From positions 1 through 50,022 of IMG/VR virus record IMGVR_UViG_3300009154_000080: DNA of 50,022 nt; one strand, written 5' to 3'. The position numbers were made by a program, and so were the translations under genes. Numbering within the stretch: the first letter of the stretch is position 1; each line of letters begins with the position of its first letter. The notes beneath the pieces were generated by a model. The model searched no databases, was not told the DNA's origin, and saw only the letters and a program-made list of their open reading frames with translations. Of the stretch, positions 2,013-25,266 are shown piece after piece. The DNA is from a virus.

Positions 2013-2750
2013 ATGAAAGACATACTCAAGAATATAGTGCAGTATACTTATGGACTTAATAAAGTTGACCTGCTCAAGATCACTGGTTCTGCAGAAGAAA
2101 CACTGATCAACGCTGTATCAGAAGATAGAACAGTAATCATCGAAGGCAAATTCAAAGCACCAATCGCTGAATTTGAAGGCGTATTTGGTGTACCAAATCT
2201 ATCTCGATTGAATACTATTCTAAATATCGACGAATATCGTGAAGATGCAAACATTACCATGACTTATAAGAAAGATGAAGACACAGGCGAAGATATGCTC
2301 AGCGGTGTTCATTTTGAAAACAAGCACGGTGATTTCAAAAATGATTATCGTTTGATGAACAGCAAGGTCGTGAACGAAAAGCTCAAAGGTGTCAAGTTCA
2401 AAGGCGTAAAATGGAATGTAGATATTACTCCTAGTGTTCTAGGTTTGCAGCGTCTAAAGGCTCAAGCATCGGCCAACAGTGACGAAACTACCTTTATAGC
2501 CAAGACTGAAAATGGATCACTGAAGTTCTATTTTGGTGATCCTTCAAACAATGCTGGTAGTTTTATATTTGAACCCAATGTTAGCGGAAATCTGAGCAAA
2601 GGTTGGTTATGGCCTGTTAACACAGTGATTACCATTCTTAATTTGCCAGGCGATAAAACCTTCAAGTTCAGCGATGAGGGTGCAGCCAAGATCACAGTCG
2701 ATACTGGAATCGCTGATTATGAGTACATCATCCCAGCACAGACCAAATAA
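2013..2750 (+). CDS. 45: Sliding clamp, DNA polymerase processivity factor (gp45)
   Basis: This 245-residue protein is close in length to T4 gp45 (228). It has the family's layout of two clamp domains: an N-terminal half with DLLKITGSAEETLINAV and a central NDYRLMNSKVV segment, and a C-terminal half with KFSDEGAAKITVDTG. gp45 forms a trimeric ring around DNA that tethers the polymerase and, in T4, also activates late transcription through gp55 and gp33. It lies 65 nt after the polymerase, whose C-terminal peptide is the expected binding partner. GGAG lies seven bases before the ATG. The assignment rests on family resemblance and gene position. Confidence 0.85.
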   Translation: MKDILKNIVQYTYGLNKVDLLKITGSAEETLINAVSEDRTVIIEGKFKAPIAEFEGVFGVPNLSRLNTILNIDEYREDANITMTYKKDEDTGEDMLSGVHFENKHGDFKNDYRLMNSKVVNEKLKGVKFKGVKWNVDITPSVLGLQRLKAQASANSDETTFIAKTENGSLKFYFGDPSNNAGSFIFEPNVSGNLSKGWLWPVNTVITILNLPGDKTFKFSDEGAAKITVDTGIADYEYIIPAQTK

Positions 2751-2751
2751 C

Positions 2752-4401
2752 ATGTCCGATCTATATCCACAAGATAACTTGACAGCCAAGCAGAAGGATT
2801 ATGCAATCTTTCTGCCTGCATTGAGTCCGTCGTTTTCATCAATTATTTCAGAACAAAGATTTAAAAATGCTGTAAATCCAGTCAGATTTCCTGCACAAAT
2901 CCAAGATTTAGAACAATTGAATTGGCTTAACAGTAAGAAAGCACTGTTTCCATATCGTTGGACTCTGAGTTCTGGAGGACATGTAAATCTAGATGTATCT
3001 AAATTTGATGAAAGTGAAGATATGATCCGCAATCGAGAGCCAGGTTCATTTATTGTAGGTGACTCCGGCGGCTTTCAGATCGGCAAAGGTGTGTGGGCTG
3101 GTGATTGGAGAGATCCTAATAGTTCAGAAGTCAAGAAAACTCTGAATGATTTAATATCTGCAGGCCCCGTAAGCATTAAAAAGGGCAAAAAGATTGTACA
3201 AGTCGATCCTTATCAGCAACAGTTGAACAAGCTAAAAGCTGCTGATGATAAACGAACTCAGATTCTTACCTGGCTAGACACCGTTGCTGATTATAGTATG
3301 ACACTAGATATTCCTAATTGGATTATTCGTGACCCCGGCGCAGTGAAAGCGACCTGCGTTACCACTCTCAAAGAAGCAGTAGACGGCACCAAATACAATA
3401 ACGAATATTTCATTGCCAATCGCAAAGGCAAAGACAACGGTGGCACCAAGTTTCTGAATGTGTTGCATGGGATTAACCATGCGTCTGCAGAAATCTGGTA
3501 TGATACCATGAAACATTATTGTGATCCCAAGAAATATCCTGATCGCCATTTCGATGGATGGGCAATGGGCGGACAAAACAAATGTGATGTACATTTGTTG
3601 CTGAAGCGTTTGGTATTACTTCGCTATGACGGCTTGTTGGAACAAGGATTGCATGATTGGATGCATTTATTAGGTATTAGTAGGTTAGAGTGGGCAGTAT
3701 TACTCACCGCAATGCAGCGTAGTATTCGCCGGCATTGGAATCCTGATTTTACCATCAGTTTTGACTGTGCGAGTCCTTTCCTAGCAGCAGCAACTGGTCA
3801 GATCTATCATCATATTGATTTGAAGGATGCTGGCAAGTGGACGTATCGAATGACTCGTCACATTGACAATCACAAATATGCAAAAGATACACGCAGTGTC
3901 AGAGATATAGCAATCACGGATTATCTGGATCATTTTGGGCATTTTGAGGATAGTCCAGTCACTGCTAGGCTCAAAATCAGCGATATGTGTGTAGGTACTC
4001 GCACTAACAATAGTTGGGACGGTTTTACATATCCGCTGTTGCAGGCACATAATGTGTGGATGCATATTGAATCAGTGCAGCGGGCTAATCGTGAATATGA
4101 TGCAGGTAGATATCCAGCAATGCTGAGAAATATTCGTGGAGATCACGAATATGTATCTGATATTATCGAAAAAGTTTTTGCTGCTCCTACCAAAGCTAAA
4201 TCATTAGAGATCATTGATCGATATGGTAGTTTTTGGATGAATATCCTGGGTGTAAGCGGAAACATTGGCAAGAAAACTATCAACGCCAGCACTATGTATA
4301 ACGCACACTTTGAACAAGATATCAATGCATGGTCTAATGAAATAGAAGAACCAGCAGAAAAAATAGAAACACGTTCAACATTCGACGATTTATTCAGTTA
4401 A
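2752..4401 (+). CDS. dpdA: TGT-fold 7-deazaguanine transglycosylase, DpdA-like (DNA base exchange)
   Basis: The 549-residue protein has the signatures of the tRNA-guanine transglycosylase fold. DSGGFQ starts at Asp104, the usual active-site aspartate region. A GGQ segment follows in DGWAMGGQNKC, then MHLLGISRLEW. SFDCASP places the probable nucleophile at Asp338, matching the FDC-x-xP motif of TGT. No clear CxCxxC zinc cluster follows, which departs from bacterial Tgt. Phage DpdA proteins are TGT relatives that exchange guanine for a 7-deazaguanine in DNA, and here FolE, QueD and QueE follow within 6 kb. The start is the ATG at 2752, two bases after the clamp stop; an upstream in-frame start at 2674 would lie inside the clamp gene. 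A tRNA substrate cannot be excluded. Confidence 0.8.
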   Translation: MSDLYPQDNLTAKQKDYAIFLPALSPSFSSIISEQRFKNAVNPVRFPAQIQDLEQLNWLNSKKALFPYRWTLSSGGHVNLDVSKFDESEDMIRNREPGSFIVGDSGGFQIGKGVWAGDWRDPNSSEVKKTLNDLISAGPVSIKKGKKIVQVDPYQQQLNKLKAADDKRTQILTWLDTVADYSMTLDIPNWIIRDPGAVKATCVTTLKEAVDGTKYNNEYFIANRKGKDNGGTKFLNVLHGINHASAEIWYDTMKHYCDPKKYPDRHFDGWAMGGQNKCDVHLLLKRLVLLRYDGLLEQGLHDWMHLLGISRLEWAVLLTAMQRSIRRHWNPDFTISFDCASPFLAAATGQIYHHIDLKDAGKWTYRMTRHIDNHKYAKDTRSVRDIAITDYLDHFGHFEDSPVTARLKISDMCVGTRTNNSWDGFTYPLLQAHNVWMHIESVQRANREYDAGRYPAMLRNIRGDHEYVSDIIEKVFAAPTKAKSLEIIDRYGSFWMNILGVSGNIGKKTINASTMYNAHFEQDINAWSNEIEEPAEKIETRSTFDDLFS

Positions 4402-4403
4402 TC

Positions 4404-4739
4404 ATGACTACAATGCAAGAAAGACAAATTCTAGACTATATTCGAGCTAGATCAACCAAAATGATTGTAGCCGAAGTATGTTTGCCGTATTCTAACAAAT
4501 CATGTAATGTAGCTTATATCAAAGTATTTGTTGAAGCTATAAACAATGAAACTGGAGAAGATTTGAGAAAATGGCTTTTAGAAGAATATTACCAAGACAG
4601 GTTATTTGTTGGAGATGATATGTCTGATGACCTGTACTTGCTTATATCAAAAAGATTCTTTAATAGAGAAACAGTGATTGAAATCACGCAAGACGGAAAA
4701 ACTGGTCAGTTGACCAGATATGCAACCACAGACTACTGA
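4404..4739 (+). CDS. Hypothetical protein (111 aa)
   Basis: I do not recognise this protein. It starts three bases after the transglycosylase stop, so the two are probably translationally linked. It is a mixed, slightly acidic soluble protein with no signal peptide or membrane segment. A helical N-terminus (ERQILDYIRARSTKM) is followed by a strand-rich region containing a single Cys pair (C21 and C29). Its place in the 7-deazaguanine operon makes a supporting role conceivable, but nothing in the sequence shows one. Confidence 0.7.
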   Translation: MTTMQERQILDYIRARSTKMIVAEVCLPYSNKSCNVAYIKVFVEAINNETGEDLRKWLLEEYYQDRLFVGDDMSDDLYLLISKRFFNRETVIEITQDGKTGQLTRYATTDY

Positions 4740-4748
4740 GGAAATACA

Positions 4749-4997
4749 ATGGCATACGAACGAACAAAAAAATACTCCCGCAGCAAACCAGAGGTAAACA
4801 AGATCTTTGATGACCTCGAAGAATATTTGGAGTTCTGCAAATGGCAAGGTTACACATTTGACGAATCTCATCTATACAATGAGAAAACTGCATGGGGAGA
4901 AATGCAGAGGGTCAAAAACGGAAAACCACCAAAAGATAATTGGACTGCTCGCCCTAAATCAGAGCGTAGAGATTTTCGACCAACCAACGTTCGCTGA
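4749..4997 (+). CDS. Small conserved-type phage protein (82 aa)
   Basis: The ATG follows GAGGAAA at 4738-4744, a good ribosome site nine bases after the previous stop. The protein is basic at both ends and acidic in the middle (FDDLEEYLEFCKWQGYTFDESHLYN). It ends in an arginine-rich tail (ERRDFRPTNVR), which suggests nucleic-acid or ribosome contact. Proteins with this EYLEFCKWQGY-like middle occur in T4-superfamily phages as uncharacterised small genes (from memory). It is the last gene before a terminator. Confidence 0.75.
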   Translation: MAYERTKKYSRSKPEVNKIFDDLEEYLEFCKWQGYTFDESHLYNEKTAWGEMQRVKNGKPPKDNWTARPKSERRDFRPTNVR

Positions 4998-5005
4998 CAA
5001 GCACG

Positions 5006-5030
5006 GCGCTGTATATTATACAGCGCTTTT
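5006..5030 (+). terminator. Rho-independent terminator
   Basis: A 9-bp perfect stem (5006-5014 with 5018-5026) with a 3-nt loop is followed by TTTT at 5027-5030. It lies nine bases after the stop of the preceding gene and 20 nt before the folE promoter, so it separates the clamp/transglycosylase operon from the folE operon. Confidence 0.8.
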
Positions 5031-5049
5031 CTATAGGTAATTTTACTGT

Positions 5050-5079
5050 TTGACATCTACATCCTAAGTATCGTAGAAT
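5050..5079 (+). promoter_or_regulatory. Sigma70-type promoter for folE
   Basis: TTGACA (5050-5055) and TAGAAT (5074-5079) are separated by 18 nt, just downstream of the terminator. The predicted transcript carries the ribosome site TTGGAG (5094-5099) before the ATG at 5105. Confidence 0.75.
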
Positions 5080-5104
5080 AATATTATTAATTTTTGGAGT
5101 TACA

Positions 5105-5797
5105 ATGAATTTACCTATCAGTCAACGAATCCGAGATCGCATTGAAGCAGCTGGTTCTCGTTATCACAGTAATGACAATATTTCAGAATTTATCTTGAGT
5201 TCTGATGAGTTGGATGAACTAGTAACTGAAGTAGCTGGCAAGTTCCAAGAGGTGTTGGATAGTTTGGTGATTGACACCGAAAGAGATCACAACACACAAG
5301 ACACTGCGCGTCGTGTAGCCAAGATGTTTGTGCGAGAAACTTTCAGTGGACGATATCGTCCTATGCCTAAGGTCACTGCATTTCCAAACATGGGTTATCA
5401 GAGTTTGTATACCACTGGTCCTATCAGCATTCGCAGCACCTGCGCTCATCACTTCCAAAATATTGTTGGCAATTGTTGGGTTGGTATTGTGCCTGAATCT
5501 GAGGTTATTGGTCTGAGCAAGTTCAATCGCATTGTTCATCACATTTGCGAACGTCCTCAGATTCAAGAAGAAATGACCACACAGATTGCAGATGCACTAA
5601 AAGAATATGCCAAGACTGATAATGTTGCTGTGGTTGTAAAAGCAGAGCATTTTTGCATGAGTCAGCGTGGTGTTCGAGAACACAACTCTGACATGAGCAC
5701 AGCAATCATGCTAGGCCGATTCAGAACATCCGCAGAACTCCGTCAAGAATTTTATCAACTGCTGCAGACCATGAAAGGTCACAGCGGCAATTACTAG
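5105..5797 (+). CDS. folE: GTP cyclohydrolase I
   Basis: The enzyme converts GTP to 7,8-dihydroneopterin triphosphate, the first step of both 7-deazaguanine and folate synthesis. At 230 residues it is full length. The zinc ligands are visible as CAHH (Cys113, His116) and Cys184 in EHFCMSQRGV. The family signatures STCAHHF and GLSKFNRIVH and the C-terminal REHNSDMSTA block are intact. It opens a new transcription unit with its own promoter and lies upstream of queD and queE, so a role in base modification is more likely than folate supply. Folate is not excluded, because a flavin-dependent thymidylate synthase is also encoded. Confidence 0.95.
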   Translation: MNLPISQRIRDRIEAAGSRYHSNDNISEFILSSDELDELVTEVAGKFQEVLDSLVIDTERDHNTQDTARRVAKMFVRETFSGRYRPMPKVTAFPNMGYQSLYTTGPISIRSTCAHHFQNIVGNCWVGIVPESEVIGLSKFNRIVHHICERPQIQEEMTTQIADALKEYAKTDNVAVVVKAEHFCMSQRGVREHNSDMSTAIMLGRFRTSAELRQEFYQLLQTMKGHSGNY

Positions 5798-5808
5798 GAG
5801 AAATCATA

Positions 5809-6222
5809 ATGTCAAGTCGAGAAAGGGATCAAGCAGATCTAGATCTAGACACATTCATAGAGTTATTTGATGAAGCTATATCCAGTGATGACCCTCGTGT
5901 CCAGCGTGCTTTGCAAGATTTGTTGGTGATCAGTGCATTAATTAGAACTAAAAGTGATCATGACCAAGTAACAAAAGGTCCACTGCGTCGTTTGTTTGAT
6001 GATGTTCATAATATCAATCGCAGACTCATTCATATCGAAGTTGATACTCGTTATGGCACACATAATACTGATTCAATGAGTCATAAAATATCGTCAGCAA
6101 TAGCTGGTTGCATTATCGGGGGGGAAAGTAAACCAAATCCATTTGATCTGCGTTATGGCACACATAATGTAATCACTAAAACAAAAATCAATTCTTCTTC
6201 AAATTCAGGCGAAGATTGTTAA
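5809..6222 (+). CDS. Hypothetical protein with duplicated RYGTHN motif (137 aa)
   Basis: A good ribosome site (GGAGAAATCATA) precedes the ATG, 11 bases after folE. The N-terminal two thirds is an acidic, probably helical segment (DPRVQRALQDLLVISALI) of a type I associate with T4-superfamily hypothetical proteins. RYGTHN occurs twice, encoded by an identical 18-bp stretch at 6049-6066 and 6151-6168, around a small glycine-rich segment. The C-terminus is polar and looks disordered. The stop overlaps the next ATG by one base. No function can be assigned. Confidence 0.75.
   Translation: MSSRERDQADLDLDTFIELFDEAISSDDPRVQRALQDLLVISALIRTKSDHDQVTKGPLRRLFDDVHNINRRLIHIEVDTRYGTHNTDSMSHKISSAIAGCIIGGESKPNPFDLRYGTHNVITKTKINSSSNSGEDC
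6049..6168 (+). repeat. 18-bp exact direct repeat inside a gene
   Basis: The 18 bases at 6049-6066 recur exactly at 6151-6168, in the same reading frame (102 nt apart, both encoding RYGTHN). The intervening sequence is not repeated. This could be a short internal duplication or a recombination scar. Confidence 0.85.
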
Positions 6223-6542
6223 TGAACCCAAGCAACTGGTTGAATCCTATTGCCATTGATCTTGATGAAATCACAGAAGAAATGGTTGAATGGTATCGTG
6301 ATATCGGCGGCAAAGTAAATTCTAGAATAGAGTCAGGTTCATGGGGACAAACTTTTACTAAAAATTATCTAGCATATGGCAACAGCAAATGGTGTTTTAT
6401 AGCACAAGATATGCAGTCAGCACGTTTGCATTTTTGCGCAGAAGATGCTAGTGTAGCATTGATGTTTATTTTAAAGTTCGATAAGCACATAAGCAAACAT
6501 AACATGAAAGAACTTTTACATGAAGAAAATATTTTATGTTGA
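6222..6542 (+). CDS. Hypothetical protein (106 aa)
   Basis: The ATG at 6222 shares its A with the upstream TAA stop (TAATG), indicating translational coupling. An upstream in-frame TTG at 6216 is less likely. The protein has an acidic start (IDLDEITEEMVEWYRDIGG) and an aromatic-rich middle (SWGQTFTKNYLAYGNSKWCF), with no membrane segment. This small single-domain pattern (WY...W.F.F) is one I associate with uncharacterised T4-like phage proteins. No function is proposed. Confidence 0.7.
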   Translation: MNPSNWLNPIAIDLDEITEEMVEWYRDIGGKVNSRIESGSWGQTFTKNYLAYGNSKWCFIAQDMQSARLHFCAEDASVALMFILKFDKHISKHNMKELLHEENILC

Positions 6543-6553
6543 AAGTCAACTGA

Positions 6554-6610
6554 TTGACAACACTAAATTGTGCTAAAATCTAGCACAAACGTACTAAAAT
6601 CAAGCACAAG
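6554..6610 (+). promoter_or_regulatory. Possible extended -10 promoter with tandem 21-nt operator-like repeats
   Basis: TTGACA (6554-6559) lies only 14 nt before TAAAAT (6574-6579), but the -10 carries an upstream TG (6571-6572), so an extended -10 promoter is plausible. The 17-nt unit at 6573-6589 recurs with one mismatch at 6594-6610, exactly 21 nt away. The first copy is also part of an inverted repeat, GTGCTA (6570-6575) with TAGCAC (6581-6586). Two helical turns of spacing suggests a site for a repressor or activator controlling the operon that includes queD and queE. Confidence 0.4.
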
Positions 6611-6619
6611 GAAAAATAT

Positions 6620-6820
6620 ATGGCATATACAAGCAAATCAACTAATGTACCTAAGGCAATCAAGAGTCAGGCACGCGGTCTGTCACTGTCACTGAAGGAT
6701 CCTTCTATGTTTAAATTATTCATTCGTATGTGGACAGAAGCAACTATACAACAGTCAGGACTTCGTGTTCAGCGCAATCATGCGATCGGCGATGCAATGA
6801 AGGGCAACAACAATGGCTAA
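6620..6820 (+). CDS. Small basic hypothetical protein (66 aa)
   Basis: AAGGA at 6608-6612 precedes the ATG. The product is a short basic protein (KSQARGLSLSLKDPSMFKLFIRMWTEATIQQ) that could form a single helical hairpin, and its 3' end overlaps queD by eight bases. It is the first gene downstream of the tandem repeats. It could be a small regulator or an adaptor of the pathway, but I do not recognise it. Confidence 0.65.
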   Translation: MAYTSKSTNVPKAIKSQARGLSLSLKDPSMFKLFIRMWTEATIQQSGLRVQRNHAIGDAMKGNNNG

Positions 6821-7238
6821 GATTACTGCCAGTCGATATCATGATTTCAGCACTGGGCATCGTGTGTATCAGCACGAGAGCAAGTGCGCCCACATGCATG
6901 GTCACAATTATCGTGTTCACTTTACCATCGAAGCACCTGAACTAGACAAAATTGGTCGAGTATTGGACTTTAGTGTGATCAAGGACCTGCTGTGCATTTG
7001 GTTGGAAGATAATTGGGATCACAAGTTTCTGCTATGGGAACAAGATCCATGGGCAGCACCAATGAAGTCACTGGATCCAGATGGTGTTGTGTTTGTTCCA
7101 TTTAATCCAACAGCAGAGAACATGGCACAGTATCTGGTGGAAGTCATTGGTCCTGTTCAGTTGTCTGGAACGGATGCTAAATTGATTCGGGTAGACATTG
7201 AAGAAACACGTAAATGTAGTGTAACTGTTGAGGCATAA
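6813..7238 (+). CDS. queD: 6-carboxy-tetrahydropterin synthase (QueD)
   Basis: QueD converts dihydroneopterin triphosphate to 6-carboxy-5,6,7,8-tetrahydropterin, the second step of 7-deazaguanine synthesis. At 141 residues it is family length. The zinc histidines are His16 (STGHRV), His29 and His31 (HGHNY), and the catalytic Cys is Cys25 in ESKCAHMHGHNY. The paired WDHKFLL and C-terminal ENMAQYL segments are also present. It overlaps the preceding gene by 8 nt and is followed by queE after one base, a tight operon. An eukaryote-type PTPS function is unlikely in this context. Confidence 0.93.
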   Translation: MAKITASRYHDFSTGHRVYQHESKCAHMHGHNYRVHFTIEAPELDKIGRVLDFSVIKDLLCIWLEDNWDHKFLLWEQDPWAAPMKSLDPDGVVFVPFNPTAENMAQYLVEVIGPVQLSGTDAKLIRVDIEETRKCSVTVEA

Positions 7239-7239
7239 T

Positions 7240-8070
7240 ATGAGCAAGATCAAAGTTTCAGAACTGTTTTATTCTGTTCAAGGCGAAGGTCGTTACATGG
7301 GAGTTCCCAGTATCTTTCTGCGCACCTTTGGCTGCAATTTTTCTTGTAAGGGCTTCGGTATGCCACGAGGACAACTCAGTACTGAAGCTGATGATATTGA
7401 TGCCAACAAGTATGCAGACTATCGAGATCTACCTTTGGTATCCACTGGTTGCGATAGTTATGCCAGTTGGCATCCTAACTTCAAGCATATGAGTCCTATA
7501 ATGGATTCAGAACAGATCGTAGAACAGATCATAGCACTGCTGCCACATGGTGAATGGCGAGATGAACATCTAGTCATCACTGGCGGCGAACCACTACTTG
7601 GGTGGCAGCGGTGTTATCCTGATTTATTGATGCACGAAAAAATGCGAAATGTTCAAGAAATTACTTTTGAGACAAATGGAACTCAAAAACTAAGTAAAGA
7701 CTTGATCAGTGCATTAAATATTTGGGATTGGGAAGAAGTCACATTTAGTGTGAGTCCTAAACTGAGTTGCAGTGGAGAATCTTCGGAGGATGCTATCAAG
7801 CCTCAAATTGTACGTGAATATGCAAAAGTAGGCTATACATATTTGAAGTTTGTAATTGCCACCGAAGAAGACGCAGGTGAAGCATTGAGAACGATTGATA
7901 TATATCGCGATGCAGGATTTCATGGACCTGTGTATTTAATGCCAGTGGGAGGAACTGAATCTGTGTATTCGTTAAATAATCGTCGAGTGGCAGAACTAGC
8001 CATGCAGCATGGGCTTCGTTATAGTGATCGTTTACAAATTCCTCTTTTCCGCAATGCATGGGGTACATAA
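7240..8070 (+). CDS. queE: 7-carboxy-7-deazaguanine synthase-like radical SAM enzyme (QueE) with non-canonical cluster motif
   Basis: QueE is a radical SAM enzyme that contracts 6-carboxy-tetrahydropterin to 7-carboxy-7-deazaguanine. The N-terminus SELFYSVQGEGRYMGVPSIFLRTFGCN is the family's substrate-binding signature, and ITGGEPLL is the SAM-binding GGEP motif. The usual CxxxCxxC cluster site reads C32-NFS-C36-KG-F39, so the third cysteine is replaced by Phe. The next cysteine is Cys71 in TGCDSYASW, after a 34-residue insertion, and may supply the third ligand. The start is the ATG at 7240, right after the queD stop; a TTG at 7228 is less likely. The 276-residue length is slightly above typical QueE because of the insertion. 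Confidence 0.88.
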   Translation: MSKIKVSELFYSVQGEGRYMGVPSIFLRTFGCNFSCKGFGMPRGQLSTEADDIDANKYADYRDLPLVSTGCDSYASWHPNFKHMSPIMDSEQIVEQIIALLPHGEWRDEHLVITGGEPLLGWQRCYPDLLMHEKMRNVQEITFETNGTQKLSKDLISALNIWDWEEVTFSVSPKLSCSGESSEDAIKPQIVREYAKVGYTYLKFVIATEEDAGEALRTIDIYRDAGFHGPVYLMPVGGTESVYSLNNRRVAELAMQHGLRYSDRLQIPLFRNAWGT

Positions 8071-8476: not shown

Positions 8477-9658
8477 ATGACTCAAATTTTAAGAAAGCAG
8501 GTAGATGCGAACAATGACGTTCGTATTTTCCTCAGTCGCGACATAGACTATGTAGATTTCAATCCAGCTGGTTACCAAACACCTACTTCGCCTGTTGGCA
8601 AGTGGGGAGCAAACGACCAAACATATGACCATGATTTCATGCAAAGACTCCGTGATTACATCATTGAATTAAGCAATCTAGAACAGCCAGACCCAAATGA
8701 ACCAATGCACATGTGGAAACATCTGCAACAAGATCACCAAGTTTTTCTTGAACAGCTTCGCAACAATAATTTGCAGTCTGCATTTGATACTCTTAATAAT
8801 CTTTATCAAAGTCCTATTATGAATGGTATCAGTCAAGGTGTTTGGGACACTGTGCCAATCAAGAAAGATTCTGATGTAGCAAAATATCGATTACTGCGTC
8901 ACTATGACACTCTGCTGGGAGTGTGTGAGTACATGGGTGTGATTGGTATTCAAAATCGCGAGCAAGGATTTAGTCCAGTGGTGCTGCCAGTAAATGACTT
9001 GGTAACAGGTCTAGCACAAAAGCTAGCTACCACTATTCCTGATTTCCACGCACCTCGTTGGCAAGGTGGTATTTGGGGCATGGATACACCGTATGGCATC
9101 ATGACCGATCGTGATATCTCAGCATTGTATGTTGCATTAAAGATCAACAGCAAATTCACTACAGATTCTAAGATTGTGGAAATAGGCGGAGGTGTGGGAT
9201 ATGTAGCTTATTGGCTTTATCAGTTGGGTTTTCGTGATATTACATTGATAGATCTACCAGCTGTTTCAGTAGCCCAAGCTTTCCAACTTGGCACTAATAT
9301 TGGAAAACAGAATGTCAGACTGCCGTTTGAAACGCATGATGCACCCATTAAGTTCCTCACGCCAGAACAATTCTACGATAGTGATGAAATGGTTGATTTA
9401 GTCTATAACACCGACAGCATGCCAGAAATGCCAAATGACGCGCTGAAAAAGTATCTAACTACCATTGCCAAGGTCAGCAAGTCTTTCTACAGTGTGAATC
9501 ATGAATGTCGCAGTGGATTCAATGGCGTACCTCAAAATTCAGTAAGTCTGGAAATAAACACTAATTTTATTGGAGAAATCATCAACCTAGAACGCAATCG
9601 CTACTGGCTGCGTGATGGATATGCTGAAGAATTCTACGTTACACAAAATTGGTCGTAA
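8477..9658 (+). CDS. SAM-dependent methyltransferase, putative sugar O-methyltransferase type
   Basis: The 393-residue protein has an N-terminal helical region and a C-terminal Rossmann methyltransferase domain. Motif I is IVEIGGGVGYVAYW (residues 233-246), with the acidic SAM-ribose ligand probably in DITLIDLP. A later LVYNTDSMPEM occupies the place of motif IV/V. The layout (YGIMTDRDISALY before motif I, VNHECR near the end) resembles the family annotated as putative sugar O-methyltransferase. AAGGA precedes the ATG. It follows queE and one small gene on the same strand, so methylation of a modified base is an attractive but unproven idea. Glycan or small-molecule methylation is the alternative. 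Confidence 0.75.
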   Translation: MTQILRKQVDANNDVRIFLSRDIDYVDFNPAGYQTPTSPVGKWGANDQTYDHDFMQRLRDYIIELSNLEQPDPNEPMHMWKHLQQDHQVFLEQLRNNNLQSAFDTLNNLYQSPIMNGISQGVWDTVPIKKDSDVAKYRLLRHYDTLLGVCEYMGVIGIQNREQGFSPVVLPVNDLVTGLAQKLATTIPDFHAPRWQGGIWGMDTPYGIMTDRDISALYVALKINSKFTTDSKIVEIGGGVGYVAYWLYQLGFRDITLIDLPAVSVAQAFQLGTNIGKQNVRLPFETHDAPIKFLTPEQFYDSDEMVDLVYNTDSMPEMPNDALKKYLTTIAKVSKSFYSVNHECRSGFNGVPQNSVSLEINTNFIGEIINLERNRYWLRDGYAEEFYVTQNWS

Positions 9659-12907: not shown

Positions 12908-14008
12908 ATGTCCGTGACTGAAAATCGTACTATTACGCCGTCTGAAGCTCGCTCGCGTGTTCTTCGGGCGTTCAAGGCTAAGCGTCCTGTGTTCTTGTGG
13001 GGTCCTCCGGGTATCGGCAAGTCTGAATTGGTGGCTGGCCTCACTGAAGACCTTGGTGGTTATATGATTGACCTGCGTATGGGTCAGATGGAACCTACTG
13101 ATATTCGTGGCATTCCGTTCTTCAATAAGAACAAGGAAGTCATGGACTGGGCTCCGCCGATTGACCTGCCCGACGAGGAAATTGCCAGTCAGTACCCGAT
13201 TGTGGTGCTGTTCTTGGACGAGATGAATTCGGCTGCACCCGCCGTGCAAGCTGCTGGTTACCAGCTGATTCTGAATCGTCGCAGCGGCAAGTACAAGCTG
13301 CCTGATAACGTGGTTATCGTGGCTGCTGGCAATCGCGAATCTGACAAGGGTGTGACCTATCGCATGCCGAGTCCGCTGGCGAATCGCTTTGTTCACCTTG
13401 AGGTCCGCGCTGACTTCGACAGCTGGTTTCAGTGGGCGGTGGGCAAAAACATTCACAAGGACGTTGTAGGTTACCTCAGCTTTGCCAAACAGGACCTCAT
13501 GGAATTTGATGCCAAGAGCGCCTCGCGTAGCTTTGCTACTCCTCGTAGCTGGACCTTTGTGTCACAGTTTCTTGAGGATGCGGATGCCACTGACTCGGAA
13601 CTCACCGACTTGATTTCAGGCACTGTGGGTGAAGGTTTGGCGGTGAAGTTCATGGCTCACCGCAAGGTGTCAGGTCAAATGCCTAACCCCGAAGATGTTC
13701 TCTCGGGAAAGGTCAAGGAACTCAAAACCAAGGATATCTCGGCTATGTATTCGCTGACGATTTCCATGTGCTATGAGCTTCAGGAACAGCATAAGAAGCT
13801 GGGCAAGGACAAGATTGCTGATTGGCACGCCATGGCTGACAACTTTCTGAAGTTTACGATGGATAACTTTACCACTGAGTTGGTGGTGATGGGTGCGCGA
13901 GTGGCGCTGACTACCTATAATCTGCCGATGGTGCCGGGTAAAATGTCGAACTTTAACGAGTTCCACCAGCGCTTTGGAAAATACATTATTGCTGCAAGCG
14001 GCAAGTAA
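12908..14008 (+). CDS. MoxR-type AAA+ ATPase
   Basis: The 366-residue protein has Walker A GPPGIGKS (residues 32-39), Walker B VVLFLDEMN (Asp104, Glu105), a sensor-like VIVAAGNRES and an arginine-containing SPLANRFVHLEV box, all typical of the MoxR branch. MoxR ATPases usually work with a VWA-domain partner as a chaperone or maturation machine, and such a partner is encoded 150 nt downstream. The C-terminal third is helical. The gene has its own consensus promoter and is GC-richer than its surroundings, which suggests a different origin from most neighbours. The substrate in the phage cycle is unknown. Confidence 0.9.
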   Translation: MSVTENRTITPSEARSRVLRAFKAKRPVFLWGPPGIGKSELVAGLTEDLGGYMIDLRMGQMEPTDIRGIPFFNKNKEVMDWAPPIDLPDEEIASQYPIVVLFLDEMNSAAPAVQAAGYQLILNRRSGKYKLPDNVVIVAAGNRESDKGVTYRMPSPLANRFVHLEVRADFDSWFQWAVGKNIHKDVVGYLSFAKQDLMEFDAKSASRSFATPRSWTFVSQFLEDADATDSELTDLISGTVGEGLAVKFMAHRKVSGQMPNPEDVLSGKVKELKTKDISAMYSLTISMCYELQEQHKKLGKDKIADWHAMADNFLKFTMDNFTTELVVMGARVALTTYNLPMVPGKMSNFNEFHQRFGKYIIAASGK

Positions 14009-14023
14009 CAGAGTCCCTTAGTC

Positions 14024-14062
14024 ACGGACAAGAGGCAGGCGAAATCCGTAAGTCCTCTTTGT
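14024..14062 (+). other. Structured region after the MoxR gene, possible weak terminator
   Basis: ACAAGAGG (14028-14035) can pair with CCTCTTTGT (14054-14062), and ACGGA (14024-14028) can instead pair with TCCGT (14045-14049), so two exclusive folds exist. A T-rich run begins at 14072, about 10 nt after the stem, too far for a classic terminator. The region sits between the MoxR stop and the next promoter. Confidence 0.35.
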
Positions 14063-14102
14063 AAGTTATTGATTTTTTTCTATTTTTTATTGGTTCAAAC
14101 GG

Positions 14103-14132
14103 TTGACAGGTTGCCCCTCTGGGGAGTATAAT
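14103..14132 (+). promoter_or_regulatory. Sigma70-type promoter for the VWA/metallopeptidase gene
   Basis: TTGACA (14103-14108) and TATAAT (14127-14132) are 18 nt apart, again with AAACGGTTGACA. The spacer holds the inverted repeat CCCC-TCT-GGGG (14114-14124), which could bind a regulator. AAGGAG (14148-14153) precedes the ATG at 14160. Confidence 0.88.
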
Positions 14133-14159
14133 GTCTGTAAATAATGTAAGGAGTATACT

Positions 14160-15419
14160 ATGGACGCAATCGCTGAGAACACAAAAACTAATCCGAAGGT
14201 CGATGCTGCTGCTCGTGAAAAGCTGATTACAGCTCGTATTGGTCTATTGCTACGTCAACCTTTTTATGGCAATCTTGTTACTCGCCTTCAGCTGGTCAAT
14301 GCTGATGATTGGTGTCAGACTGCAGCCACTGATGGTCGTCACTTCTATTACAACAGCGAATTCATTAATAAGATGCCACTGAAACAGTGTGAATTTTTAT
14401 GTGGTCATGAAGTGCTGCATGTTGTATACGATCACATGGGTCGTCGTGGCTCTCGTGATCCAAAACTGTGGAACATTGCTGATGACTATTGTGTGAACGC
14501 TGACCTCATCGAATCTGGGGTCGGTGAAAAAATCACTGTGGTGGGCATGCTGTATGATCCCAAGTACAAGGGTTGGAGTGGTGAAGAGGTCTATGATGAC
14601 CTCTATAAAAATGCTGACAGGATCAATATTGATCAGCTTACCAAGATGCTTTTGGATGAGCACATGGACAGTGAAGATGACGAGGGCAGTGGTGAAGGCA
14701 ATGATAGCAACAACCCTGTAAACGGCAAAGGACCTGTTAAACTGACTGCGGAAGACCGTCGCCAGATTCGGGATGAAATTAAAGAAGCCATTATTAATGC
14801 AGCACAAGCTTCTGGTGCTGGCAATGTGCCGAGTGGGGTCAAGCGTCTTATCAAGGACCTCACTCAGCCTATGATTGGCTGGAAGGAATTACTGGAGCAA
14901 CAGGTTCAAAGCACTATCAAAAACGACTTCACATTTGCTCGTCCTAGTCGGCGTGGTTGGCATATGGATGCTATTCTGCCTGGTCTGAAGAACGGTGAAA
15001 TGATTGATATCTGCATCGGCATCGATCAGTCTGGTTCAATTGGAACAGCAGATAGCAAGGTGTTTCTGGGAGAAATCAAAGGTATCATGGAAGCCTATGA
15101 CGAATACAATATTCGAGTCTGGTGCTTTGATACTGAAATCTATGCTGATCAAGAGTTCACCAGTGACAATATGGAAGAAATCGACAACTACGAGCCCGAG
15201 GGTGGTGGTGGCACTGACTTCATGGCTAACTGGGATTACATGAAGGCACAAGGAATCGAACCTAAAAAGTTTATCATGTTCACTGACGGTTATCCTTGCG
15301 GCAGCTGGGGTGATGAAAACTACTGCGACACGGTTTGGATTATCAAGGGCAACACTGAATGCAAACCGCCGTTTGGGGTATGGGCAATCTACGAAAACGA
15401 AGCCAAGAAAGCCAAGTAA
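14160..15419 (+). CDS. VWA-domain protein with N-terminal metallopeptidase-like domain (MoxR partner)
   Basis: The 419-residue protein has two domains. The N-terminal one carries HEVLH (His83, Glu84, His87), the zinc-peptidase HExxH motif, within CEFLCGHEVLHVVYDH. The C-terminal VWA domain has a MIDAS site, IDQSGSIG (Asp289, Ser291, Ser293), with GGGGTDF and MFTDGYP supplying the other metal ligands. Residues 160-190 are an acidic linker of Asp/Glu/Ser/Gly. This layout matches the DUF2201-type proteins that partner MoxR ATPases. Whether it cuts peptides or only binds them is not shown. Its promoter resembles that of the MoxR gene, so the two should be co-expressed early. Confidence 0.88.
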   Translation: MDAIAENTKTNPKVDAAAREKLITARIGLLLRQPFYGNLVTRLQLVNADDWCQTAATDGRHFYYNSEFINKMPLKQCEFLCGHEVLHVVYDHMGRRGSRDPKLWNIADDYCVNADLIESGVGEKITVVGMLYDPKYKGWSGEEVYDDLYKNADRINIDQLTKMLLDEHMDSEDDEGSGEGNDSNNPVNGKGPVKLTAEDRRQIRDEIKEAIINAAQASGAGNVPSGVKRLIKDLTQPMIGWKELLEQQVQSTIKNDFTFARPSRRGWHMDAILPGLKNGEMIDICIGIDQSGSIGTADSKVFLGEIKGIMEAYDEYNIRVWCFDTEIYADQEFTSDNMEEIDNYEPEGGGGTDFMANWDYMKAQGIEPKKFIMFTDGYPCGSWGDENYCDTVWIIKGNTECKPPFGVWAIYENEAKKAK

Positions 15420-17415: not shown

Positions 17416-18075
17416 ATGAAAGTCCGTCTTATCAGTCATAGCTGCCCTACATCTGAAGTTGCAGTGGCAGGTATTCAAGATATGCAAGAGCTAGTAGCTT
17501 ATTGCGCCAGAGTCAGTAATCCAGCAAATCAATTCAACACTGAAACATCAGAAAAGCTAATTCGATATTTAATTCGCAATCAGCATTGGAGTCCTCTAGA
17601 AATGGTTTCTGCTTGCCTTGAAATAGAAACCACACGAGATATTGCCCGACAAATCCTGCGTCATCGTAGTTTCAGTTTCCAGGAATTTAGCCAGAGATAT
17701 GCAGACCCCACACAAGATCTAGACTTCGTGGTTCGAGAAGCACGCCTCCAGGACCTTAAGAATCGACAAAACAGTATTGATACGGATGATAATGAGCTGG
17801 AATCATGGTGGCAAGACCAGCAAAAAACAGTGATCAACCTAGTTAAAGATATCTACACACAAGCTATTTCACGTGGTATTGCCAAAGAACAAGCTCGTGC
17901 AATACTGCCCGAGGGAAACACTGTTAGTCGCTTGTATATGAATGGCACTCTACGTAGTTGGATTCATTATATGGAATTACGCAGTGCTCACGGTACTCAG
18001 AAAGAACATCAGGAGATCGCTGTTGCTTGCGCAGCGGTGATCTCCACAGTGTTTCCTATGACTTCTAGCTTCTAA
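17416..18075 (+). CDS. thyX: Flavin-dependent thymidylate synthase
   Basis: ThyX makes dTMP from dUMP using FAD, NADPH and methylene-tetrahydrofolate. The 219-residue protein carries the ThyX signature RHRx7S at Arg82-His83-Arg84 and Ser92-Arg94 (RHRSFSFQEFSQR). LIRYLIRNQHWSPLEM upstream and RLYMNGTLRSWIHYMELR downstream (substrate binding) are also family hallmarks. AGGGAG precedes the ATG. It is the last gene of the rightward arm. Use of ThyX instead of T4-type Td sets this phage apart from enterobacterial T4 relatives. Confidence 0.96.
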   Translation: MKVRLISHSCPTSEVAVAGIQDMQELVAYCARVSNPANQFNTETSEKLIRYLIRNQHWSPLEMVSACLEIETTRDIARQILRHRSFSFQEFSQRYADPTQDLDFVVREARLQDLKNRQNSIDTDDNELESWWQDQQKTVINLVKDIYTQAISRGIAKEQARAILPEGNTVSRLYMNGTLRSWIHYMELRSAHGTQKEHQEIAVACAAVISTVFPMTSSF

Positions 18076-18202: not shown

Positions 18203-21103
18203 TCAATATTCGATAACTATAACGCCACCTTTTCCATTAGTTCGTGCACCGCCCGCGCCGTAACCGCCACCCCAAAAACTTGGTGCATTGCCAGGGTCCT
18301 GGCATCCTCCTACGCCGTCAGCGCCAGCGAGTTCCAGATCACCCAAATCACCAGTACCACCATTTCCACCCACGGTATCCGTGGTAGTTCCGTAACCTAG
18401 GTTACCATACATTTGTATTGTACCCGTACTATTGGTTAACCTCAACCGTGAACCAACACCATTTTTACCCGATAATGTAGTAGCAGTGCGGTCACCCCCT
18501 CCGCCAACTTCACAATAATATGTTGTCCCTGGTGTGACACTAGTGAATATTTTTATTGCTGTTCCACCAGCGCCACCTGACGAGCTACGAGAACTTGTTC
18601 CATCGTAAACACCGGCGCCGCCGCCGCCGGTTACAATAGCTTTAAATCTTCTAACATTGGTCGGCACCGTCCAAGTGCCACTACTAGTTTTCACTACCAT
18701 GTTGTTAAATCCTGCAGATACTGCTACTGCTTGAACAAATGCGGTAGTAGCCACGTTAGTAGAGCTGTCAGATGAAGTTTGAGTAACTGCTGTAGTTGCA
18801 CCATTAAATGCAACGGTACCATTTAGCGTAACTGCACCACTGAATGTTTTTGCGCCCGATATTGTTTGTGTTTGGCTTTTGGTGACTATATCTGCACCAT
18901 CTAATGTTGTACTGCCGGTGCCGCCTTGACTAACAGGCAAAGCTGATGCGCCATATGTGATAGAAATAGCTGGTGTAGTAGTCGAACTTGTTACGGATAC
19001 AGTCAAGAAAGGCACAGAACTAGCTGACACTGAAGTAACTGTGCCGACCGTTGGCGTTGACCATGTAGGAGCAGAACTACCGCCTTGACTTGTTAGTACT
19101 TGTCCGCTCGATCCAGCACTGGATGTAAAACTATAAACACTGCCTGTGCTGTATGCAATAGTGCCAGCTGCTCCTACCGATGTACTGCCTGTGCCGCCGG
19201 CTGAAACACCAGCAGATCCCCATGTAGGTGCTGAGGATGATCCTTGAGATAAAAGTACCAAACCACTTGTACCAGACGCCAAGAAAGATGTAGCGCCAGC
19301 CCCAGTTTGATAAGGAATTCTATTTGCACCACCGTCGGCTAGATTAGTTGCTGTTGTTGCTGTTGTTGCGGATCCTGCACTGCCGTCGATACTCACGCCA
19401 GTTAATGATTGACTTGCACTAGATCTGTTTAAAGCAATAGATGTTGTTCCAATGTACACAGCTGAGGATCCTAATACACCAGAAGGCAATGTGCCAGTGA
19501 TTTGAGCCGCAGGTATGCTGGTTAATGATGCACCAGAACCAGAAAATCCAGTGGCTGTCAGTATGCCTGTACTTGGAGTGTAGTTTAGTTTACTGCTTGA
19601 TGTTTTAAGAGTGCTTGTCGTACCAGTAGTTGTATTCCAAAACAAAGGATACATAGCAGAAGCAGTAGATGTATCATTACTTAAAGTCACTGCTGCACTG
19701 CTTAGTGTAGTCCATACAGGAGAACCACCTGCACTGACTGTCAATACTTGACCAGTTGTGCCGATAGTCAAGAATGAAGTTGCGCTTGGTCCGCTTTGAA
19801 CAGGCAAAGAATTAGACAATCCTCCAACAAGATGTGTGGCTGATCCTGCTGCAAGTGAACTTTGTGCTACCCAACTTGGCGCTGAACCAGTTGATTTTAA
19901 CACGTAACCGTTTGTGCCAATAGCTAATGCTGTTAGTGCAGTGGGTGTTCCGGTGGATCCTGAGTATAAGATATCGCCAGTGGTATATGAACCTATGCCT
20001 GTGCCGCCGTTGTCTGCTTGCAATGTTCCTGCAATAGTAAAGGTTCCCCCGACTGGATCATTAATCGTTGCTGTAGAGCCGCCATTGATTGTTAGACCGG
20101 TGTTTGTTGAAGCCAACGTGATAGATGTTATACCAGCGCCGGCGGCAGCTACTTGTGTATCTACATAAGCCTTCATGTTTGTATTAGCTGTTGTAACTAC
20201 ACCAGAAGTGTATGTAGTCTGACGGATATTTGAATCATCAACGTAGCTCTTCATTGCTGTATTTGCAGTTACTATAGCAGCATCTGTGTATCCTTTGGTA
20301 GCTACACCTAATGAAGTTGTAGGACTTCCTACAACTTCTATTAAACCGCTGGTACCATTGATCTTGATAACATCTAATGAAGCGCCTAAAGTCGGCGACA
20401 CTACGAATCGAATGCCATTGGCTGCAGCTAGTGAACTCATTACTACGTTGCCACTGGCAACACCTAACTTGAAGTTAGGTGAACTTATCATACTTGGTTC
20501 TGAAGTAGTGGTAAAATTTAAACCTGGATTTATTGTGGATAATCCCCCAATAGTGGCTCCGCCAGCTAAACTAAATGCTGATGAATCACTACTCAATATA
20601 CCGGTGAGTTTATTGTTGACCATGAGATTGCCAACAGTATGATTTATTGCTGTGTTGTCTGCTAGAACGTTTCCGGTAATTGCAGTCGGAAGACTGGCCA
20701 AACTAGAAGCTGGACCAATGGCTACCCATCCATTGCTTGTCCCTGAATATATTTTCAATAGTGAGTTGATTGAATCCCACCATATATCTCCGATTGCTGG
20801 ATTCAGTGGCGCAGATGTTGCACTCTGACTGAAGGACATTGGTTTCCATCCAACAGTGCTGTCCACATAAACGTTGAGACTTTTATTAAGACTATTCCAC
20901 CACAATTGCCCTTTAAGGGGATTGGTTGGTGCTGTTGTTTTGCTGAAATTTTCCAGCATCTTGATGAAATTTTCATTTATCAACAGACCGTAGCCAGCAT
21001 AGTTTTTGCCTATTAAATTTATGCTGGTAGTTGAAATATCTACTGCACCGTCTGCTAGTGTAAGTAGTGCGGTGCCGTTGGTAAGTGTGAGATTATAAGC
21101 CAT
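18203..21103 (-). CDS. Tail fibre/adhesin with glycine-rich tip (966 aa)
   Basis: The first 130 residues (NLIGKNYAGYGLLINENFIKML, then GQLWWNS and GDIWWDS) match the start of the 393-aa fibre-type protein encoded at 24085-25266, so this is probably a shared baseplate-attachment domain. The middle is Ser/Thr/Gly-rich and built from fibre repeats of the type SGQVLTSQGGSSAPTW, usually trimeric phage-fibre shafts. From about residue 815 a glycine-rich domain follows (VTGGGGAG, then GGGYGAGGARTNGKGG), like the receptor-binding tips of some phage adhesins. AGGAAA lies about 12 nt before the ATG. It is the last gene of the late operon as read, fitting a distal host-recognition protein. Confidence 0.82.
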   Translation of the reverse strand: MAYNLTLTNGTALLTLADGAVDISTTSINLIGKNYAGYGLLINENFIKMLENFSKTTAPTNPLKGQLWWNSLNKSLNVYVDSTVGWKPMSFSQSATSAPLNPAIGDIWWDSINSLLKIYSGTSNGWVAIGPASSLASLPTAITGNVLADNTAINHTVGNLMVNNKLTGILSSDSSAFSLAGGATIGGLSTINPGLNFTTTSEPSMISSPNFKLGVASGNVVMSSLAAANGIRFVVSPTLGASLDVIKINGTSGLIEVVGSPTTSLGVATKGYTDAAIVTANTAMKSYVDDSNIRQTTYTSGVVTTANTNMKAYVDTQVAAAGAGITSITLASTNTGLTINGGSTATINDPVGGTFTIAGTLQADNGGTGIGSYTTGDILYSGSTGTPTALTALAIGTNGYVLKSTGSAPSWVAQSSLAAGSATHLVGGLSNSLPVQSGPSATSFLTIGTTGQVLTVSAGGSPVWTTLSSAAVTLSNDTSTASAMYPLFWNTTTGTTSTLKTSSSKLNYTPSTGILTATGFSGSGASLTSIPAAQITGTLPSGVLGSSAVYIGTTSIALNRSSASQSLTGVSIDGSAGSATTATTATNLADGGANRIPYQTGAGATSFLASGTSGLVLLSQGSSSAPTWGSAGVSAGGTGSTSVGAAGTIAYSTGSVYSFTSSAGSSGQVLTSQGGSSAPTWSTPTVGTVTSVSASSVPFLTVSVTSSTTTPAISITYGASALPVSQGGTGSTTLDGADIVTKSQTQTISGAKTFSGAVTLNGTVAFNGATTAVTQTSSDSSTNVATTAFVQAVAVSAGFNNMVVKTSSGTWTVPTNVRRFKAIVTGGGGAGVYDGTSSRSSSGGAGGTAIKIFTSVTPGTTYYCEVGGGGDRTATTLSGKNGVGSRLRLTNSTGTIQMYGNLGYGTTTDTVGGNGGTGDLGDLELAGADGVGGCQDPGNAPSFWGGGYGAGGARTNGKGGVIVIEY

Positions 21104-24084: not shown

Positions 24085-25266
24085 TTAAATTTGGAACCAA
24101 AAATCACCTACAATTCCATCACCTGATGATGGTGTACTTGAACTAACTGTTTTGCCGCTGCCTTGCCATTTTGAATTAGTTGCACTGCCTATAGCAGATT
24201 GTGTAAATGCAGTTGTGGCTATTAATGTGCTGCTGTCTGCGCTGGATGGGGTAGGTGCGCGCGGTGAACCAGTGAATGTTGGGCTAGCAATCCTTGCATA
24301 CGTTGAACCTAGATTATCAATTTTACTGTCTACATACACTTTTGTAGCTGCACCAAAATTACTCAGAGCATTAGCTGCTAATCTAACTTCACCAGTAGAC
24401 CCAACGATAGTCAATGCTTTGGTGTTTATAGTAGAAGTGTTTACATAGAAACTCAAATCTGCATTGTTAACAATATTACGAATAGTCATATCACCTGAGC
24501 CACTTGATGCACTAGTGATCGAGCCGCCGCTTGATCCACCTACATTAATATTTGCTGCAAATGTTTCAGTGATGTCTTTTCTAGCGTAATTTGAATATGA
24601 AAAACTCCCCAGTTTTTGACTATCAGTAGCTGTGCCATTGAAGATGCCGCCGTTACTCGTATTCAAATTCAATCCAGGATATAATTTTCCGTCACTGGTC
24701 GTGAAGTCTGGTATAGGTGTAAATGTAAACGCTGCAACCCAGCTAAAAACAGCAATCAAGTTGCCATTAGCATACATCTTGAGGATCGGATTGCTATTGT
24801 TAACATCAGGTATTGAGCCACCTTGGCCGTTCAATTTACTGAAAGATGGTCCTACAGTAACCCAAGATGAACCGTTATAAGATTTAAATTGATCATTTGT
24901 GGTGTCCCACCATTGATCTCCAACTGCTGCACCAGCTGGTGCTGAGGTCGTCGCACTGAATGCTGAACCAGTGACTAAATTAAAAGCAGATCCATTATAG
25001 ACTTTTAATCTGTTTAGAGTAGTATCGTAGAATAATTGGCCGGTTATAGGTTTCGAAGGTGGATTACTTGTAGTTTGGGCAAAATTTTCCAGCAACTTAA
25101 CAAAGTTTTCATTTTGAATTTGTCCATAATTAGGGTAATTTCTGCCTATCAGATTCAATGAAGTACTATTATTTGGCGGATTTACGTCCGGGCCATTTGC
25201 GGTACCATCATACAGAATAACTACTTGTTGACCTCTGCTGTTTGTAATCGTATAACTATTTGCCAT
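24085..25266 (-). CDS. Tail fibre-type protein (393 aa)
   Basis: The N-terminal 130 residues (NLIGRNYPNYGQIQNENFVKLLENFAQTT, then GQLFYDTT and GDQWWDTT) are paralogous to those of the 966-aa fibre. A shaft follows, ending in FTGSPRAPTPSSADSSTLIATTAF, a phrase I know from many phage tail fibres, then a short C-terminal FWFQI. It lacks a glycine-rich tip. AGGATAAT lies before the ATG, 11 nt after the preceding gene. It is probably a shorter fibre or a connector using the same baseplate socket. Confidence 0.8.
   Translation of the reverse strand: MANSYTITNSRGQQVVILYDGTANGPDVNPPNNSTSLNLIGRNYPNYGQIQNENFVKLLENFAQTTSNPPSKPITGQLFYDTTLNRLKVYNGSAFNLVTGSAFSATTSAPAGAAVGDQWWDTTNDQFKSYNGSSWVTVGPSFSKLNGQGGSIPDVNNSNPILKMYANGNLIAVFSWVAAFTFTPIPDFTTSDGKLYPGLNLNTSNGGIFNGTATDSQKLGSFSYSNYARKDITETFAANINVGGSSGGSITSASSGSGDMTIRNIVNNADLSFYVNTSTINTKALTIVGSTGEVRLAANALSNFGAATKVYVDSKIDNLGSTYARIASPTFTGSPRAPTPSSADSSTLIATTAFTQSAIGSATNSKWQGSGKTVSSSTPSSGDGIVGDFWFQI

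Follow-up and report, generated by a model that had tools for sequence, protein, structure and literature searches.

The window, 50,022 bases of linear sequence from an uncultured bacterial virus (IMG/VR record IMGVR_UViG_3300009154_000080), encodes in one block FolE, QueD, QueE and a protein with the fold of tRNA-guanine transglycosylases (TGT) that is predicted to be a DNA-guanine transglycosylase of the DpdA type. The presence of a DpdA-type DNA modification locus, with DpdA, FolE, QueD and QueE together, is well supported by sequence comparison and structural modelling, and the locus probably makes a 7-deazaguanine base and inserts it into the phage's own DNA. With moderate confidence, the base is most likely 7-carboxy-7-deazaguanine (CDG) itself, which would be present in DNA as its deoxynucleoside, dCDG. 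By the comparisons made here, several features are new: a DpdA subfamily for which none of four profile libraries (Pfam, PHROGs, NCBIfam and PADLOC) gave a model; what is likeliest a CDG-type gene set, searches of the window and its twins having yielded neither QueC nor QueF; a predicted QueD-fold paralogue near DpdA, with a putative metal site lost in this lineage; and tailoring-type genes present in most long relatives but not in the window, along with clusters of DpdA, a glycosyltransferase-like gene and a transporter gene in 7 of 24 bacterial loci.

Fold and family of the transglycosylase-like protein

Viral contigs scanned for relatives of the TGT-like protein yielded 306, of which the best 80 were kept, and the motifs DSGGFQ and SFDxA are present in all 80. 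A preliminary description of the locus had placed D104 in DSGGFQ and D338 in SFDCASP of the open reading frame (ORF) at 2752-4401, and its coordinates, strand and motifs were right. D104, D186 and D338 are invariant in 64 aligned rows and in a set of seven rows from the distant family, and share alignment columns with D89, D143 and D264 of E. coli Tgt; we take D338 to be the nucleophile, D104 the general base and D186 the residue of base recognition. The start at 2752, downstream of a gene that ends at 2750, is plausible because the Asp of DSGGFQ then lies 103 residues in, as in most of the 80 relatives, where the first Met (chosen by script) is 99-105 residues ahead of it.

The TGT fold named in the preliminary description was recovered by an AlphaFold2 model built from 64 sequences, with a predicted local distance difference test score (pLDDT) of 83 and a predicted template modelling score (pTM) of 0.83. 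The best ten PDB matches of this model in Foldseek, those below E 0.001, are all tRNA-guanine transglycosylases (E 9e-8 to 1e-5), and VIA gave TGTs in all 50 rows among the matches listed, the best being 2ash (Z 18.0, root-mean-square deviation 4.3 over 306 residues). Matches among predicted viral proteins include DpdA2 of phage nt-1 and the transglycosylase of phage Motura. Membership of the TGT/DpdA fold superfamily is supported by the model.

At the level of sequence, the signal comes from alignments, not from single sequences: the window protein as a single sequence scored near noise (28) against Tgt or DpdA2 alone in hhalign. The seven-row alignment of the distant family scored 76.7 against DpdA2 (maximum of 60 column shuffles, 28.8), 43.4 against Tgt (shuffle maximum 22.3), and within noise against 9g-type DpdA. 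When the window family, DpdA2 and intermediates were pooled in one alignment, the DpdA of phage 9g scored weakly against it (36.7, probability 42%), so a remote link to the window family is possible. PF01702, the Tgt model, has no match anywhere in the window record, nor does hmmscan of the TGT-like protein find one. At the Tgt zinc site, CxCxxC...H, the protein keeps only C413 and H433, two of the three Cys being gone; a Tgt-like CxCxxC is retained in Motura, Aura and PhiXhv-12.

Clustering with Tgt, which the preliminary description had named as evidence against its own reading, was not seen: in a tree of 28 proteins (tree 1), four Tgt, a small sample, split from all phage proteins at 100/100, E. 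coli Tgt being the sole one of these four from a named bacterial genome and the other three coming from records that are labelled phage and look bacterial. DpdA2 (seven rows) forms one clade at 100/100 in both trees, with the window protein outside it. Tree 1 also unites Motura, Aura and PhiXhv-12 (99/95) and, in another clade, the window family, PA5oct, Phosso and Vibrio 2.275.O (97/96). In tree 2, which has 37 rows and includes bacterial relatives (14 of the 30 loci from the bacterial scan described below), the four Tgt again split off at 100/100, and support for the larger clade is 98/93 with one long-branched Bacteroidota row and 100/99 without it. Long branches were flagged for Motura and 2.275.O in tree 1 and for Motura and L161 in tree 2. 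The underlying alignment, A1, holds 63 of the 80 viral relatives, the 17 dropped being mostly near-duplicates picked by eye; ten of the 63 were used in tree 1 and five in tree 2. Both profiles, that of the distant family and that of DpdA2, pick up PhiXhv-12 and Aura; the distant-family profile has a weak match to Moby (DpdA2) and to Motura and none to nt-1.

Judged by these alignments and trees, the TGT-like protein is a separate subfamily of the TGT superfamily, near DpdA2 but not DpdA2, and the predicted subfamily spans jumbo phages (PA5oct, Phosso, Vibrio 2.275.O) and bacterial proteins. The earlier wording "DpdA-like" stands in the sense of a TGT-superfamily protein apart from Tgt, but not in the sense of a 9g-type DpdA or a DpdA2. 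The profile comparison suggested earlier, phage DpdA versus Tgt, was likewise divided: the absence of a PF01702 match agreed with the description, but phrog_887 and phrog_10773 did not match either.

Biosynthesis genes and the predicted base

The identities proposed earlier for FolE, QueD and QueE were upheld by profile matches (PF01227 and phrog_2197, PF01242 and phrog_2389, and phrog_2076, respectively; Table 1), the QueE scan having used the frame 7228-8070. Residues that we take to be those expected for catalysis are all present (C113 and C184 of FolE; C25, HGH 29-31 and D69-H70 of QueD; C32, C36 and C71 of QueE), and the dpdA-like, folE, queD and queE frames each contain only the terminal stop. 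The cluster Cys of QueE are kept with the third displaced (C32-X3-C36-X34-C71); this third Cys is invariant in an alignment with 11 phage QueE. A comparable insertion occurs in nt-1, Moby, PA5oct, BUCT-ZZ01 and Aura, a shorter one in CP220 and Motura, and a short one or none in 9g and phiSM. The insertion need not harm the enzyme, because nt-1 has it and, as stated in a passage of PMC6884629, nt-1 DNA contains dPreQ0, the deoxynucleoside of 7-cyano-7-deazaguanine (preQ0).

The linkage of these genes extends to replication genes, with polB in 76 of the 80 relative loci and a predicted sliding clamp in 79, a label that comes from position and analogy to 9g since phrog_12062 carries no named function. 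Family profiles found FolE downstream of DpdA in all 37 loci whose sequence on that side extends at least 6 kb; in the fetched flanks of these 37, QueD was found in 13 and QueE in six, counts that are low because these genes often sit further off. Searches of 13 whole records of long relatives found FolE in 13, QueD in 12 and QueE in 12, the sole miss for both being G030, in which FolE lies ~1 kb from the contig end. Large contigs gave extra radical SAM matches to phrog_2076, weak and partial ones that were left out of the QueE count. A 13-genome comparison comprised chosen long relatives, the window and PA5oct (G030 and G001 were left out), and the clusters of polB, clamp, DpdA, a small protein, FolE, QueD, QueE, a structural-type protein and an exonuclease were each present in 13 of 13; members other than the window already had a known QueD and QueE or, like PA5oct, had been picked for the comparison, and the unselected figures are the whole-record and flank counts.

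From family membership, FolE would convert GTP to dihydroneopterin triphosphate, QueD would make 6-carboxytetrahydropterin (CPH4) and QueE would make CDG, which the TGT-fold protein would exchange for guanine in finished DNA. By analogy with the chemistry of Tgt, D338 would attack C1' of the deoxyribose and guanine would leave, D104 would activate the incoming base and D186 would help to recognize it. A base swap just behind the replication fork would fit the linkage to polB and the clamp. The likely benefit, by analogy with phages 9g and CAjan, would be resistance to restriction enzymes that read guanine.

FolE, QueD and QueE end at CDG and no QueC or QueF was found, which makes CDG the predicted base, and dCDG its form in DNA, rather than preQ0, 7-amido-7-deazaguanine (ADG) or archaeosine. 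The search for QueC used PF06508, on 38 of the 80 relatives, and phrog_1550. By these profiles QueC was not found in the window (G000), G001 or G002, all three of which are fragments (50, 46 and 102 kb), nor was it found in PA5oct, BUCT-ZZ01 or Phosso; all five positive controls (nt-1, 9g, Moby, phiSM and Vibrio 2.275.O) were detected. QueF was found neither in the window nor in the 38 relative records, Vibrio 2.275.O being positive. PF06508 matched six of the 38 records, in genes that are NAD-synthase-like, and the idea of a retained QueC was dropped: one of the six scored 6.5e-50 against PF02540 versus 4.3e-5 against PF06508, the other five are its close homologues, and phrog_1550 matched the same NAD-synthase-like gene in four of the six records. 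Cui and co-workers reportedly found dCDG in phage DNA in 2023. A comparable point was made by Hutinet 2019 (PMC6884629) for Mycobacterium phage Bipper, in which QueC alone is missing.

Next in likelihood to CDG itself, and doubtful, is that the phage supplies CDG and QueC of the host converts it, so that the DNA carries preQ0 or ADG. In E. coli, the DpdA of 9g expressed on its own inserted host-made dPreQ0 (PMC6884629, Table 1), and a passage of PMC7824862 suggests that host enzymes complete partial phage sets; but relatives of 320 and 337 kb also have only the NAD-synthase-like gene near QueE and no true QueC match, so the lack is not merely that of a missing window fragment. A decarboxylated or otherwise altered CDG comes after this and is improbable. 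That the transglycosylase acts on tRNA, with the phage boosting queuosine (Q) precursors or modifying host or phage tRNA, seems very unlikely. The fold is that of tRNA-guanine transglycosylases, and a passage of PMC6884629 suggests that phages with queuosine genes but no DpdA raise host Q. Set against this are the lack of a PF01702 match, the separation from Tgt in the tree, the two absent zinc-site Cys and the linkage to polB and the predicted clamp; moreover, bacterial Tgt uses 7-aminomethyl-7-deazaguanine (preQ1), needing QueC and QueF, neither of which was found in the window.

It is also conceivable, though unlikely, that CDG is only a first step: DNA-bound CDG would be decorated, for example glycosylated or amidated, and the window lineage would have lost the tailoring genes or would keep them elsewhere. 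Glycosyltransferase-like and epimerase families lie downstream of DpdA in 35 of those same 37 loci with a long enough flank, 6 kb or more (the misses being the window twins L001 and L002) and both occur in 11 of the 13 compared genomes, the window and G002 being the two without; the Pfam scores behind the glycosyltransferase label are weak, the better of two scanned phage members reaching 1.9e-5. A phosphoribosyltransferase is near QueE in 10 of the 13, six relatives have the NAD-synthase-like gene near QueE, and BUCT-ZZ01, in which QueC was not found, has a phosphoribosyltransferase and a weak glycosyltransferase match beside its DpdA2. However, the sugar genes may have their role in surface or tail glycans, recycling of guanine released by DpdA may be all that the phosphoribosyltransferase does, and no match of the glycosyltransferase-like, epimerase, phosphoribosyltransferase, NAD-synthase-like or DegT-like families was found anywhere in the 50-kb window.

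Several points weigh against the reading in which the locus builds CDG into the phage's own DNA. Vibrio 2.275.O, in the same DpdA clade, carries QueC and QueF, so the subfamily is not bound to CDG. The window and its twins are fragments, and a distant QueC is therefore possible; genes of such sets can indeed be scattered, with FolE and QueD ~50 kb from DpdA in PA5oct, QueE far from the rest of the set in nt-1, and FolE elsewhere in the genome in Phosso, where QueC was not found and QueD and QueE were searched only in the fetched locus. Searches of Pfam, PHROGs, NCBIfam and PADLOC with the TGT-like protein yielded no match at E 1, the best PDB sequence reached only E 0.18, and the support for the reading as a whole comes from sequence and a structural model.

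The QueD-fold paralogue, tailoring-type genes and bacterial relatives

The family of the small protein encoded directly after dpdA in the window lies downstream of DpdA in all 53 loci with at least 3 kb there. Its structure was modelled from the L066 homologue rather than from the shortened window protein (pLDDT 86.7), and the model matches E. coli QueD (4ntk; Foldseek E 7e-5, VIA Z 12.0) and other PTPS proteins. The assignment to the QueD fold was decided by this structure search, because the alignment by sequence only is weak (hhalign 26.0 against QueD, shuffle maximum 21.4). H30 and H58 are present in each of the other 28 rows of the alignment and H56 in all but one of these, and all three are absent in the window and L002; from this alignment, the putative His metal site is lost in the window lineage. 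As a guess from the modelled fold, the paralogue may be a CDG-handling enzyme in the relatives.

Two further observations concern relatives. The NAD-synthase-like gene at L100:14181-14936, with homologues in L101-L105, could encode an amidating enzyme for CDG or belong to plain NAD metabolism. Between QueD and QueE of the same relative (L100:2661-12881) lie nucleotide-sugar-type genes, namely an epimerase, two aminotransferases, a thiamine pyrophosphate (TPP) enzyme and methyltransferase-like genes.

Scanning bacterial genome contigs with the DpdA subfamily gave 30 loci, 24 of which entered the neighbourhood count (L132-L136 and L140, phage-like or truncated, were left out); for several of the 24 the contig is long, the sources including Shinella, Ciceribacter and Sulfitobacter. 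In 17 of the 24 a phage-type integrase family has a member somewhere in the locus, and a 571-aa-type protein of no assigned kind occurs in ten, directly upstream of DpdA in nine. Seven (L138, L144, L151, L156, L157, L159 and L160) combine DpdA with a glycosyltransferase-like homologue and a Vut_1 (YhhQ-type) transporter, labels for which one member of each family was scored by Pfam, the glycosyltransferase member reaching only 0.018. FolE and QueD were not found in the 24 loci with our own profiles, and QueE only in L161; these bacteria may therefore import or borrow the base. Judging by gene content, the loci with DpdA, glycosyltransferase-like protein and transporter may be an undescribed 7-deazaguanine DNA modification system.

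A broader scenario is tentative. The window would represent a dCDG lineage, with an acidic base in place of guanine, within a group built on carboxy-deazaguanine rather than preQ0. Most long relatives would decorate the carboxylate or the base further. This tailoring would fall to the glycosyltransferase near DpdA, the NAD-synthase-like enzyme or the QueD-fold paralogue, and the phosphoribosyltransferase would recycle the expelled guanine. The transglycosylases would form a separate subfamily in jumbo phages and in bacterial loci that often have integrase genes.

Locus layout, other genes and known systems

The same-strand block given in the preliminary description is correct for the four named genes; it needs amending in that five small ORFs lie inside it, the first of them being the diverged QueD-fold paralogue (Table 1).

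Table 1. Predicted features of the modification locus and the adjoining clamp gene in the window.
Feature	Position	Strand	Evidence
predicted sliding clamp, directly upstream of dpdA	2013..2750	+	phrog_12062 1.2e-31; homologue in 79/80 relatives
dpdA-like gene, 549-aa TGT-fold protein, predicted DNA-guanine transglycosylase	2752..4401	+	D104, D186, D338, H305; AlphaFold2 model, PDB matches, motifs of relatives
diverged QueD-fold (T-fold) paralogue, 111 aa	4404..4739	+	near dpdA in relatives; structure match via L066 homologue
small conserved ORF, 82 aa	4749..4997	+	matches in 56/80 relatives and in 37/37 loci with at least 6 kb downstream
folE, GTP cyclohydrolase I	5105..5797	+	PF01227 1.2e-46; phrog_2197 7.7e-54
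small ORF within block	5809..6222	+	open frame; matches in 6/80 relatives
small ORF upstream of queD, TTG start as listed	6216..6542	+	open frame; matches in 7/80 relatives
small ORF overlapping queD start	6620..6820	+	open frame; matches in 2/80 relatives (L001, L002)
queD, 6-carboxytetrahydropterin synthase	6813..7238	+	PF01242 3.4e-26; phrog_2389 4.3e-50
queE, 7-carboxy-7-deazaguanine synthase (radical SAM)	7240..8070	+	phrog_2076 1e-55; C32-X3-C36-X34-C71

Upstream of the clamp gene, polB (1-1947) is interrupted, with polymerase parts at 4-399 and 1015-1947. A stretch of 51 bases between them (766-816) is 88% identical to a phage HNH endonuclease gene, and the interruption is likely a homing-endonuclease insertion; in PA5oct, too, polB is split, with a putative Hef-like homing endonuclease between its parts. 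Downstream of the locus, between a structural-type gene and the exonuclease gene, 8477-9658 encodes a putative sugar O-methyltransferase (TIGR04371, 49.9 bits versus a cut-off of 44) with a match in only one of the 80 relatives (L001). Further along are an AAA ATPase followed by a DUF2201 metallopeptidase/VWA protein (12908-15419; homologues in G002, G016 and PA5oct), the flavin-dependent thymidylate synthase ThyX (17416-18075; PF02511 4.5e-42), tail-fibre-like matches at 18203-21103 and 24085-25266 and, on the minus strand, a 4608-aa ORF (25982-39808) among several ORFs of ~1000 aa.

Among known systems, DpdA2 (nt-1 YP_008125322 and its kin, phrog_10773) is likewise a TGT-fold phage protein within a 7-deazaguanine gene set and shares with the window family the motif order DSGG, xD..P, QG/HG, HxLG, S.D.S. 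The two differ in falling into separate clades, in the failure of the window protein to match phrog_10773 at E 1 and in LD-xP standing in place of FDEIP; moreover, nt-1 has QueC, whereas none was found in the window. Phage 9g, whose DpdA has been tested for function (PMC6884629), has the gene order polB, clamp, DpdA, FolE, QueD, QueC, QueE, and the window has the same order without a QueC being found, and the same predicted reaction. However, the window protein does not match the 9g DpdA family (phrog_887), the 9g motif is DSGAFS, and 9g has Gat-QueC and makes dG+.

The Pseudomonas jumbo phage PA5oct belongs to the same DpdA clade as the window, at 30% identity, and is likewise a phage in which QueC was not found; polB, clamp, DpdA, QueE and exonuclease are in the same order in both. 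PA5oct differs in the distant placement of FolE and QueD and in the genes that separate its DpdA from QueE, which include glycosyltransferase-, epimerase- and phosphoribosyltransferase-like ones. A passage of Iyer 2021 (PMC7824862) states that PA5oct contains a deazaguanine synthesis and incorporation system, so systems of this type had already been recognized, even within this clade.

The base predicted for the window is the one reported for the dCDG phages of Cui et al. 2023, in which DpdA3 and DpdA4 are described. Campylobacter phage CP220 was examined through 101 ORFs of at least 220 aa in bases 1-176,000 of its 177,534. It has no match to the A2 profile; a 264-aa protein (L114:15657-16448, phrog_19058) with Tgt-like motif order gave the best score, 34.9, about at the level of the 9g control (36.7). 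This protein was not counted as a homologue, and the label DpdA3 for it is a guess; from its motifs, it may be the transglycosylase of CP220.

In the literature searched, mostly titles and beginnings of abstracts and without Cui 2023, the subfamily, its lack of QueC and the bacterial loci are not named, and the matches in all 13 isolate records are labelled hypothetical. With no library model and such labels, annotation could miss ~300 environmental phage sequences with likely guanine modification. If the prediction is true, the modified base would hide the phage genome from the DNA-cutting defences of bacteria, and guanine sites that hold an acidic base would be expected to show a particular pattern of resistance and a particular nanopore signal. 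Because the clade has cultured members (PA5oct, Phosso and Vibrio 2.275.O), the idea can be tested.

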